Assembly (NCBI GenBank): GCA_003224085.1
Contig: QHYK01000080.1
Span: 1 to 46,685, forward strand
Length of the DNA: 46,685 bases
Direction of reading: 5' to 3'
Source of the DNA: Acidobacteriota bacterium
Lineage (GTDB): Bacteria > Acidobacteriota > Terriglobia > Acidiferrales > UBA7541
The position numbers and the translations under genes are program-made. The notes beneath the pieces were generated by a model, which saw only the letters and a list, made by a program, of their open reading frames with translations, ran no database searches and was not told where the DNA came from. How positions within the stretch are numbered: position 1 is the first letter of the stretch; every line of letters begins with the position of its first letter. Positions 24,033-26,738 of the stretch are shown here, one piece after another.

Positions 24033-24470
24033 TTACTGAGAGGGTGGACTGATTTTGTTCTGTGCCCAGCGCTGGCGAATTTGTGCCAAGAATTTCTCTT
24101 TGTCCTTCTGCATCAGCCGGATGAGCGGCCGGTTTTCGGTTTTTTCGTGCTTGCCCGCCCACAGCACCATTTCCGTCAACACCGGGGCAAGGTCCATTCC
24201 CTTTGGCGTCAGCAGATAAATCAGCTTTCGCCCATCGGACCGGTCGCGCTTGGCCCGGATAATTCCGTACGCTTTCAGCCTGCGCAACCGGTCGGCCAAT
24301 ATGTTCGACGCCGGGCGTTCGTAGGAACTCAGGAATTCCTTGAACGTTCGGCGCCCCAACAGCATCATGTCCCGGATGATCAGCAGAGACCACCGGTCTC
24401 CCAGCATCTCCACAGAAGCATTCAGCGGGCAGCCTGACCGGCGCTTTGCACTTGGCTTTTCCCTTGGCAC
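24033..24470 (-). CDS. HxlR-family transcriptional regulator
   Basis: The 145-residue winged-helix protein has the HxlR signature: an N-terminal Cys (SGCPLNASVEMLGDRWSLLI), then RTFKEFLSSYERPASNILADR and the wing AKRDRSDGRKLIYLLTPKG. HxlR proteins usually dimerise and repress or activate divergent genes in response to electrophiles, oxidants or small ligands via the N-terminal Cys. It is divergent from a GyrI-like ligand-binding gene, and a perfect palindrome lies in the 89-base gap between them, a likely operator. The tail is extended by about 25 charged residues. Confidence 0.9.
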   Translation of the reverse strand: MPREKPSAKRRSGCPLNASVEMLGDRWSLLIIRDMMLLGRRTFKEFLSSYERPASNILADRLRRLKAYGIIRAKRDRSDGRKLIYLLTPKGMDLAPVLTEMVLWAGKHEKTENRPLIRLMQKDKEKFLAQIRQRWAQNKISPPSQ

Positions 24471-24491
24471 TTTTCCACGCTAGCATTTTTC

Positions 24492-24508
24492 ACTTGCATT
24501 TTGCAAGT
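24492..24508. promoter_or_regulatory. Perfect palindrome, probable HxlR operator
   Basis: ACTTGCA-TTT-TGCAAGT is a perfect 7-bp inverted repeat with a 3-base centre. It lies 22 bases ahead of the HxlR start and 52 bases ahead of the divergent GyrI-like gene, where a dimeric winged-helix regulator would bind. The assignment to HxlR is inference. Confidence 0.6.
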
Positions 24509-24559
24509 TGGTTGTGCACACTGGCAACCTGCTTGCTATCTCACTTTGGAGAACAGAAA

Positions 24560-25073
24560 ATGGGCCACACACCCGCAAAACAATCACCGGCAATCAAACT
24601 CGAACCGCCGCGCTTCGAAAACGGCAAACCTCTCCTCATCGCCGGACTGCGAAACAGTTATGCTCCGCAAGCAATGAGTGGCATTCCCGCGCAGTGGCAG
24701 ACCCTTGCGCCGCACATTGGTAAAATCCCGGCGCAGCTTGGCCGCACCGCCTACGGCATTTGCTGGCAGGCGGCAGATAACGAAAGCATTGAGTATTTGT
24801 CGGGCGTGGAAGTTTCCGGCTTCACAGGCGTCCCCGCCGATTTCACGGTGGTAAGCATTCCCGCTCTGCGATATGCCGTTTTTCCCCATCGCGCGCAACG
24901 TTTCGAAACTGCATGAAACCTGCGACGCCATCTCCAAGTGGCTGCCGGACTCCGGCTACCAACCCGCCGCAGCCGACGCTGAAACACCGGCCTTCTTCGA
25001 ACGTTATAGTGAAGAATTCGATCCCCAAACCGGAATGGGCGGGATCGAAGTTTGGGTACCGATTAAACCGTAA
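24560..25073 (+). pseudogene. GyrI-like effector-binding protein, split by a frameshift
   Basis: The first part starts at ATG 24560 behind GGAG and reads IKLEPPRFENGKPLLIAGLR, then GRTAYGICWQA and YLSGVEVSGFTGVPADFTVV, reaching RYAVFPHRAQ before a stop at 24914-24916. The expected continuation VSKLHETCDAISKWLPDSGY, then PAFFERYSEEF and IEVWVPIKP, is read in the next frame and stops at 25071-25073. One extra base in the GCGCGC run at 24891-24896 explains the break. The family (GyrI/AraC effector-binding domain) binds small amphipathic ligands. It could be a true pseudogene or a sequencing error. If restored, it would be about 170 residues. Confidence 0.8.
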
Positions 25074-25236: not shown

Positions 25237-26424
25237 ATGAGCAAGGTGCGTGTGTTGGTGGGAACCAGAAAAGGCGCGTTCATTCTGACCTCGGACGGCA
25301 AGCGCGAGAAGTGGGACGTGAGCGGCCCGCATTTCGCCGGCTGGGAGATTTACCACATGAAGGGATCGCCGGCGAATCCGAACCGCATTTACGCGTCGCA
25401 GACCAGCGGCTGGTTCGGACAAATCATTCAGCGCTCCGATGATGGAGGCAAAACTTGGATTCAGCCGGGTACCCCTCCTGGCGAGCCGACCACAGGCCCC
25501 GGCGGAATGCCCAAGGGCGAAAGCAACAAATTCGTGTACGACACTTCCGCCGAAACCGGCGCGCCTCTCACCACGCATCAGTGGTACGACGGCACGCAGC
25601 ATCCCTGGGAATTCAAGCGCGTGTGGCACATTGAACCCTCGCTTGCCGAACCGGATGTGGTCTACGCGGGCGTGGAAGACGCCGCTATTTTCCGGTCGAA
25701 AGACGGGGGCAAGTCCTGGCAGGAACTTTCCGCACTTCGCGGCCATGGCACCGGCCCGAAGTGGCAACCCGGCGCGGGCGGTATGTGCCTACACACACTG
25801 ATTCTTGATCCGGGCAACGTGAAGCGCATTTACATCGCCATCTCCGCCGCGGGCGCGTTTCGCACCGAGGACGGCGGCAAGACGTGGAAGCCCGTCAACC
25901 AAGGTCTCTACTCGCAACACATTCCCAATCCCGCTGCCGAAGTGGGCCATTGCGTCCATCACATCGCGATGAACCCAAAGCGTCCCAACGTTTTGTTCAT
26001 GCAAAAGCATTGGGACGTCATGCGCAGCGATGACGCTGGTGATAACTGGAAAGAAATCAGCGGCAATTTGCCGACGGACTTTGGCTTCGTCATCGACGTT
26101 CACGCCCATGAACCGGAAACCATCTACGTCGTTCCCATCAAGAGCGACGGCGAGCACTACGTGCACGAAGGGAAATTGCGCGTCTATCGCAGCCGCTCCG
26201 GCGGAAACGAGTGGGAAGCTCTCACGAAAGGTCTGCCGCAAAGCCATTGCTACGTAAACGTGCTGCGCGATGCCATGGCGGTCGATTCACTAGATAAGTG
26301 CGGCGTCTACTTCGGCACGACTGGCGGCCAGGTCTACTGTTCCGCCGACGCCGGCGACAATTGGGCGCCCATCGTGCGCGATCTCCCTGCTGTGCTTTCC
26401 GTCGAAGTGCAGACACTTGCGTGA
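25237..26424 (+). CDS. BNR/Asp-box repeat beta-propeller protein
   Basis: The 395-residue cytoplasmic protein has no signal peptide. Five Asp-box repeats are visible: [32 protein letters not shown] and SADAGDNW, each closing a propeller blade. Other segments are [18 protein letters not shown] at the start and [21 protein letters not shown] in the middle. Asp-box propellers occur in sialidases and in sortilin-like and photosystem assembly proteins; the catalytic Arg triad and Tyr of sialidases are not evident, so a binding or scaffold role is more likely. The stop overlaps the start region of the MoaD/ThiS-like gene, so the two are translationally coupled. Confidence 0.85.
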
Positions 26425-26429
26425 GTTCG

Positions 26430-26738
26430 ATGCCGCCGGTCAACATTCGCATCCTCCTTCCGCCACACTTGCGCGCGTTGGCGCACATCAAAGGCGAACT
26501 TCACGTGGAAGTCGCGGGGACGCCAACCGTGCGGTCCGTTTTGGATGCGCTCGAAGCCGCTTACCCGATGCTGACCGGAACGATTCGCGATCACGTCACG
26601 CAGCAACGACGGCCGTTCTTGCGCTTCTTCGCGTGCGAGGAGGATCTTTCGCACGAATCGCCCGATACGCCGCTGCCCGAAGCGGTCGTCTCAGGAAAAG
26701 AGCCGCTGCTCATCCTCGGCGCCATTGCCGGCGGCTAG
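26430..26738 (+). CDS. MoaD/ThiS-like ubiquitin-fold protein ending in Gly-Gly
   Basis: The 102-residue protein begins [17 protein letters not shown]. It has the beta-grasp features of MoaD/Thi[20 protein letters not shown] near the middle and the C-terminal [11 protein letters not shown] terminal Gly-Gly is the site where E1-like enzymes adenylate and thiocarboxylate these proteins for sulfur transfer to molybdopterin or thiazole. No E1, MoaE or ThiG gene is nearby. An alternative GTG start at 26421 overlaps the propeller stop (GTGA) and would add three residues. Pairing with the propeller suggests one pathway of unknown purpose. Confidence 0.85.

Follow-up and report, generated by a model that had tools for sequence, protein, structure and literature searches.

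An Asp-box beta-propeller paired with a ubiquitin-fold Gly-Gly protein in many bacterial phyla: a candidate sulfur-carrier system

Two overlapping genes and their products

We analysed a stretch of 46,685 nucleotides from an Acidobacteriota bacterium (contig QHYK01000080.1 of assembly GCA_003224085.1), hereafter the window, in which two genes follow each other on the forward strand. Judged from its open reading frame (ORF) and from domain and sequence matches, the upstream gene (25237..26424, +) encodes an Asp-box beta-propeller of 395 amino acids belonging to the family of PDB entry 3b7f; its seven-bladed fold is assigned from fold searches made with models of relatives rather than of the window protein. 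A motif scan located five canonical Asp-boxes on the same strand: SDDGGKTW at residue 67 (25435..25458), SKDGGKSW at residue 154 (25696..25719), TEDGGKTW at residue 210 (25864..25887), SDDAGDNW at residue 264 (26026..26049), and SADAGDNW at residue 369 (26341..26364). The five boxes counted in an earlier note on this DNA were thus recovered, together with a degenerate sixth, SRSGGNEW, at residue 319 (26191..26214). By eye, the N terminus of the propeller carries no signal-peptide-like stretch, in keeping with the cytoplasmic location that the same note had given it.

The downstream gene (26421..26738, +) encodes a ThiS/MoaD/CysO-like ubiquitin-fold protein, referred to below as the carrier, which ends in AIAGG; the codons of the two terminal glycines (26730..26735) are followed by a TAG stop. 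Read from GTG 26421, the carrier has 105 residues and its start overlaps the propeller stop in the tetranucleotide GTGA (26421..26424, +), an arrangement that suggests translational coupling. Read from the alternative ATG at 26430, it has 102 residues and begins five bases after the propeller TGA, and not six as had been noted before. GTG 26421 appears the likelier start: in the nearest relative (L010), the gene begins with a stop-overlapping ATG at the homologous position. The spacing fits a 4-base overlap in 34 of the 76 paired loci of the named genome collection described below. None of the three matches of the window genome to the activating enzyme E1 (PF00899, E<=1e-3), nor its single MoaE match, lies on the window contig, which agrees with the earlier remark that neither gene is near the pair. 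Upstream of the pair, at 24446-25073, we observed an ORF for a GyrI-like effector (family assigned by eye) that is apparently split over two frames (24446-24916 and 24873-25073), through either a frameshift or gene decay.

Taken alone, the window carrier scored below the cut-offs of both Pfam ThiS (12.4 bits; cut-off, 22.5) and NCBIfam SAMP1 (18.4 bits; cut-off, 60), and tblastn with this single query found no match in a plasmid collection. A profile of 49 paired relatives matched ThiS/MoaD-type carrier structures, MoaD (2m19), and SAMP1 at 1e-18 to about 5e-10; the top structures were 4n6e_B and 3dwg_C (about 1e-18), which we take to be CysO-type sulfur carriers. Among the individual members, SAMP1 was the NCBIfam model matched most often (35 of 49 at E<=0.01), while Pfam ThiS was matched by 29 at the same threshold and TIGR01682 moaD by five (best, 0.00046), the window member being in neither of the latter two groups. 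The window protein has the C-terminal Gly-Gly and, by way of the 49-member profile, the beta-grasp homology of the ThiS/MoaD/CysO carriers, so that the basic reading of the locus, an Asp-box propeller gene overlapping a beta-grasp Gly-Gly gene, was confirmed from the ORFs and this profile. The cysteine of its FFACEED motif (codon 26634..26636, +) stands in a conserved column: 100 of 101 window-type carriers have it, versus 2 of 61 other rows, and it may be catalytic or carry a persulfide. The window genome also encodes a second CysO-like carrier (L088:7956-9608, minus strand), directly downstream of an ORF that by eye resembles threonine synthase; these two possibly form a carrier-PLP-enzyme pair.

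The window propeller matched Sortilin-Vps10 and BNR in Pfam, and its nearest solved structure was 3b7f ("glycosyl hydrolase, BNR repeat"; E=2.6e-65), with the best stretch at residues 132-390. Similarly, 3b7f was the first-ranked Foldseek hit of the propeller modeled in a natural fusion (TMt 0.88; see below), and in VIA-align the propeller of a second model (L203) superposed on it with a Z score of 49.9 over 355 residues (rmsd 1.9). Fold, sequence, and about five Asp-boxes all place the protein in the 3b7f family, and matches to this fold carry no information on function. A RIP motif ahead of the repeats marks GH33 sialidases; no RIP-like tripeptide is present in the window propeller. Across 162 paired and 13 solitary propellers (one of the latter, L146, near a contig end), residues T10, K12, S203, H241, Q256, and H258 are invariant, and H186 and R344 are kept in 161 of the 162 paired and in all 13 solitary ones. 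These residues probably line a pocket. Solitary propellers that share them with the paired ones include L031, L032, L034, L029, and L021-L025, indicating that the carrier gene need not adjoin the propeller gene.

Distribution and co-inheritance of the pair

We then asked how widely the two genes occur together, as the earlier note had proposed. A carrier with an adjacent upstream propeller is present in 12 of the 13 genomes of the genus, that of the window included; in G008 the propeller is split across contigs by contig ends, and G006, the thirteenth genome, has neither gene. Four genomes of the same order (G013-G016) encode propellers 44-51% identical with no carrier adjoining, and other MoaD-like genes were found elsewhere in G013, G014, and G016, with no match in G015. 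Of two further relatives, G019 has one unpaired propeller and a second one adjoining a carrier gene, and in G020, from the same class, the carrier comes first.

In a phylum sample of 297 genomes, searched with a carrier profile (A1) and a propeller profile (A2), the carrier profile matched in 175 genomes (E<=1e-3) and the propeller profile gave 111 matches in 103 genomes (E<=1e-40). A carrier lies within 3 kb on the same strand for at least 96 of these 111 propeller matches, and within 160 bases for at least 92 of the 96, rates that describe the A2 family and not all Asp-box propellers, because the A2 seeds were themselves paired. Both gene orders occur among the 96 pairs, with the propeller first in 56 and the carrier first in 40. 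When the remaining 15 matches were rescanned with a less strict threshold, ten proved to have a neighbouring carrier, leaving unpaired L138, L146, L152, L156, and L143, where the gene is cut by the contig end.

Pairing was equally apparent in a named genome collection, where we inspected the best 80 of 565 related stretches (74-93% identity to the window propeller). A carrier follows downstream in 76 of these 80, within 200 bases in 64 and within 1.9 kb in the remainder; two of the four unpaired loci (L205 and L264) lie at contig ends. According to the record titles, the paired loci span at least nine phyla; the titles name, among others, Acidobacteriota, Nitrospirota, Planctomycetota, Gemmatimonadota, Chloroflexi, Verrucomicrobia (Spartobacteria), Omnitrophota, Armatimonadota, Gammaproteobacteria, and Deltaproteobacteria (Anaeromyxobacter), although single titles may be wrong because most records are metagenome bins. 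The pairing is strongly conserved across phyla, and the named-genome scan and the phylum tables ruled out that the pair is a local accident of one genus.

The propeller is also found in 15 records of the plasmid collection, ten of which we examined. The carrier comes first in those from Burkholderia cenocepacia, Cupriavidus metallidurans, Mitsuaria, and Pseudomonas aeruginosa and the propeller first in those from Arthrobacter and Nonomuraea; three Rhodobacterales records and one Streptomyces record contain no carrier. The automatic name given in plasmid records is "exo-alpha-sialidase".

No third gene recurs next to the pair. Among 44 non-redundant regions (representatives at 80% propeller identity), the commonest neighbour family, ABC-F-like by eye, occurs in five, in a count that used simple ORF calling and missed E1 neighbours. 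The idea that the pair belongs to a larger operon with an informative third gene was accordingly rejected.

The two proteins diverge together: over 162 pairs the distance matrices of propeller and carrier correlate with r=0.96, compared with at most 0.14 in 300 shuffles. The two fusions were left out of this non-redundant set, as were near-copies recognized by shared 4-mers and any copy that contained stops or gave a short match. In a tree of 80 carrier rows (99 columns), the window type forms one clade of 34 rows on a long branch with full support (100/100), apart from ten E1-linked or other carriers; many other forks of the tree have no resolution.

Gly-Gly ends, activating enzymes, and JAMM peptidases

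Of 184 evaluable unfused carriers, 183 retain the C-terminal Gly-Gly, 164 ending exactly in GG and 19 in GG followed by a tail, as counted over loci and not over independent genomes, because some genomes are present twice. The single carrier lacking it (L030, Nonomuraea) is paired. One further carrier, L145, had initially been classed by script as lacking Gly-Gly, but its printed end reads SGG followed by a tail. In a similarity-thinned set with the residues after Gly-Gly trimmed, both glycines are kept in 160 of 161 rows. Furthermore, two natural fusions (L153 and L154) join carrier, Gly-Gly, a short linker, and propeller in a single frame, and retain the internal Gly-Gly. Residues after the Gly-Gly are therefore found in these two fusions and the 19 tailed copies; the window carrier has no tail. 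In G157, a paired carrier reads through its Gly-Gly into an ORF for a TypA/BipA-like GTPase (L132:3738-5999, minus strand; about 600 residues, by eye), which is either a real fusion or the result of a lost stop.

The earlier note had also named entry of the Gly-Gly tail into the propeller pocket as a check of its idea, and such entry found no support in AlphaFold2 models. In the model of fusion L154 (pLDDT 92, pTM 0.79), residues 83-87, comprising the Gly-Gly and the start of the linker, fall under pLDDT 50, as do residues 523-525 in the model of L203, a read-through chain in which the propeller is followed by the carrier and its free tail (pLDDT 86, pTM 0.73); in both, the Gly-Gly region is disordered. 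Since both proteins were present together in six rows of one underlying alignment and four of the other, the models are weak evidence against docking. Earlier joint alignments were discarded for badly placed carrier-only rows with 5-25% identity to the first row (A3 and A4) or, because they held plasmid-record rows, replaced by A7 and A8 (A5 and A6).

The ThiS/MoaD/CysO sulfur carriers depend on an E1 for their thiocarboxylate, and we looked for its distribution. PF00899 is present in 20 of 21 relatives, including the window genome and G006, and in 272 of the 297 phylum genomes (102 of 103 with the propeller versus 170 of 194 without; here and below, presence of E1, JAMM, and MoaE per genome was read by eye from tables of all matching genomes). 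With an E1 profile, 7 of the 194 regions scanned proved to contain an E1, always directly beside the pair or the propeller with gaps of about 20-190 bases. L071 and L204 are one locus by coordinates and score, so that, with L083, L086, L143, L254, and L269, six distinct loci remain, compared with a rough chance expectation of about 0.2 loci if two E1 genes are placed at random among 4000 genes. In L143 the carrier is not on the contig and the E1 lies about 70 bases from the propeller match. Among three adjacent E1s run against Pfam, two combine ThiF and rhodanese and that of L254 is ThiF alone. The co-distribution with an E1 that the earlier note had named as a check is seen in these counts, though no E1 adjoins the window pair. 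In L179 a homologous carrier is fused to an E1-rhodanese, and ORFs of similar length contain further carrier matches. Away from its pair, the window genome has a Prok-JAB gene adjoining an E1 gene (PF00899; G000:C103:3439-5196).

The masked Gly-Gly ends led us to JAMM peptidases. Matches to PF14464 (Prok-JAB) are bimodal over 99 genomes, being either <=1.5e-19 or >=2.8e-9 or absent, and we defined E<1e-15 as a strong JAMM. Of the 103 propeller genomes, the 99 with a paired carrier of readable end entered the comparison; the tail-bearing loci L246, L249, and L250, from the named collection, were left out. A strong JAMM is present in 16 of 16 genomes with a tail or fusion versus 43 of 83 others (p=1e-4), in a test that was formed after part of the data had been seen. 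Counted by genus, the figures are 15 of 15 versus 32 of 49, with genera partly non-independent, and by family 12 of 12 versus 13 of 23. Omitting the long read-through ORFs L117 and L132 gave 14 of 14 versus 43 of 83, and omitting in addition four one-residue tails gave 10 of 10. Both propeller fusions occur in strong-JAMM genomes. A strong JAMM is absent from 40 of the 99 pair genomes, so the peptidase probably does not belong to the basic cycle, and we rejected it as a general requirement.

Proposed function and known systems

A two-gene unit in many unrelated bacteria, one member of which ends in Gly-Gly, suggests a widespread sulfur-transfer pair. We give about even chances to the proposal that the pair consists of a dedicated, E1-activated sulfur carrier and a propeller that serves as its acceptor enzyme. 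By analogy with established sulfur-carrier biochemistry, the two genes would encode one functional unit, in which the cellular E1-rhodanese, mostly encoded elsewhere and sometimes adjoining, would adenylate and thiocarboxylate the C-terminal glycine of the carrier. The charged carrier would then dock on the propeller, whose conserved Thr/Lys/His/Gln/Arg set would bind a small-molecule substrate and accept the sulfur, as MoaE, ThiG, CysM, and BexX accept sulfur from their carriers. Where a tail or fusion masks the Gly-Gly, a JAMM (Prok-JAB) peptidase would expose it first. Solitary propellers, which share the invariant residues, may make use of some other carrier, in the manner of BexX.

Speaking for this proposal are the adjacency in both orders, the fusions, the correlated divergence (r=0.96), Gly-Gly retention, E1 neighbours, the association of masked Gly-Gly with JAMM, the CysO-type structure matches, the invariant propeller residues, and the precedents of MoaX, DRJAMM, and MoeZ. 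Against it stand the lack of a recurrent neighbour that would name a substrate, the disordered Gly-Gly of the models, the solitary propellers, the L030 carrier, the post hoc nature of the JAMM test, and the 40 of 99 pair genomes with no strong JAMM. The earlier suggestion of a sulfur-transfer or protein-conjugation pair is supported in part, by conserved pairing, fusions, and E1 presence, and not as regards tail docking. More tentatively, and at somewhat less than even chances, we propose that the widespread propellers of the 3b7f type, which go under sialidase or glycosyl hydrolase labels, form a new class of sulfur-inserting enzymes. Each would receive sulfur from the thiocarboxylate of a dedicated CysO-like carrier protein, a role new among beta-propellers, and would act on a metabolite in a pathway common to many phyla.

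Several of these observations could also be read in terms of a ubiquitin-like modifier, an E1-activated carrier conjugated to protein lysines with the propeller as receptor, substrate adaptor, or conjugation factor; WD40 propellers serve ubiquitin systems in eukaryotes. The matches of most members to SAMP1 (sub-threshold for the window), the adjoining E1 genes, and the link between JAMM and masked Gly-Gly would all be expected of a modifier. However, the strong JAMM that would remove conjugates is missing from two-fifths of the pair genomes, and the two best structure matches are presumably sulfur carriers with a small-molecule role. We consider a modifier unlikely and favour sulfur transfer over protein conjugation. 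The tight operon and the fusions would fit any obligate complex, including one in which the carrier fold serves as a stable subunit, stabilizing or closing the propeller, and its Gly-Gly is never activated, as the loss of Gly-Gly in L030 would allow. On such a purely structural role, near-complete retention of Gly-Gly over deep divergence, confinement of masked Gly-Gly to JAMM genomes, and E1 neighbours would all be unexpected, and we regard it as likewise unlikely.

A role in a side branch of molybdenum cofactor metabolism, in which the pair would act at or after molybdopterin and might, for instance, sulfurate a cofactor or a molybdenum enzyme, draws on the presence of MoaE in 98 of 103 propeller genomes versus 118 of 194 others. 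This co-occurrence may reflect lifestyle, with genome size as another possible confounder, and five propeller genomes (G025, G086, G100, G130, and G205), four of them at least 95% complete, have no MoaE match; we hold such a branch to be improbable. The same five genomes and the separate, fully supported carrier clade indicate, on sequence grounds, that the small protein of the window is not the ordinary MoaD of a MoaD-MoaE pair; membership in the ordinary MoaD clade was what the earlier note had named as fatal to its idea. Finally, the Asp-boxes and the automatic sialidase names would suggest a secreted glycosidase or sialidase of the ordinary kind that has the carrier gene beside it by chance. 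The propeller has neither a RIP-like motif nor, by eye, an export signal, and the pairing in 76 of the best 80 named loci and the fusions to a carrier domain already contradict a chance neighbour, which makes this reading scarcely credible.

The interest of the pair lies in the fact that it spans many phyla under misleading annotations, and that we found no function for the related crystal structure 3b7f, released in 2007. Known carrier-acceptor pairs led to sulfur-containing products such as thiamine, the molybdenum cofactor, cysteine, and thiosugars. A defined two-gene target with a predicted activator and a mass-spectrometric test opens this large orphan propeller family to direct testing. 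Should the JAMM association hold, it would point to a general route by which bacteria expose masked Gly-Gly ends.

The closest solved relative of the propeller, by sequence and fold, is the seven-bladed Asp-box protein 3b7f itself (Reut_B4987, YP_299179.1, of Ralstonia eutropha JMP134). The sections of PMC2716378 available to us describe it as seven-bladed with five Asp-boxes and a function "not known", and mention no partner. Among the open-access PMC papers listed by our searches, we found no description of the carrier-propeller pair. ThiS/MoaD-E1-rhodanese-JAB operons described by Iyer, Burroughs, and Aravind in 2006 involve the same carrier superfamily and the E1-rhodanese type of activator, comparable to the L179 fusion, but sections 12 and 15 of that survey (PMC1779556) describe no propeller partner, and BNR, sialidase, WD40, and propeller do not occur in its main text. 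In the excerpt of PMC1949818 at hand, the lone mention of a propeller is in the legend of a domain-architecture figure, in a passage with no MoaD.

With regard to the carrier, the systems ranked first by its profile are 3dwg and 4n6e (named cfp10A and ThiS/MoaD family protein in the PDB table), presumably the CysO-CysM and carrier-BexX systems. The window pair differs from these in that the putative acceptor is a propeller and in that the window-type carrier, with its near-invariant cysteine, forms a clade separate from the sampled E1-linked carriers. One E1, MoeZR, charges both MoaD and CysO, according to the abstract of PMC3227635, and MoeZ serves BexX in trans with carriers from primary metabolism, as stated in the portion of PMC5321127 consulted. 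The fused molybdopterin synthases MoaX and DRMoaD-MoaE have carrier, Gly-Gly, and partner in one chain, as do L153 and L154, although the partner there is MoaE and here a propeller, and cleavage of the propeller fusions is only predicted. In extracts of the respective papers, MoaX must be cut after the Gly-Gly, between Gly82 and Ser83 (PMC4326299), and DRJAMM cuts DRMoaD-MoaE, leaving a C-terminal Gly (PMC8832034). The association between masked Gly-Gly and JAMM agrees with these MoaD-fusion precedents, and overall we rate the pair as a candidate sulfur-carrier system in which the partner is of a new class.
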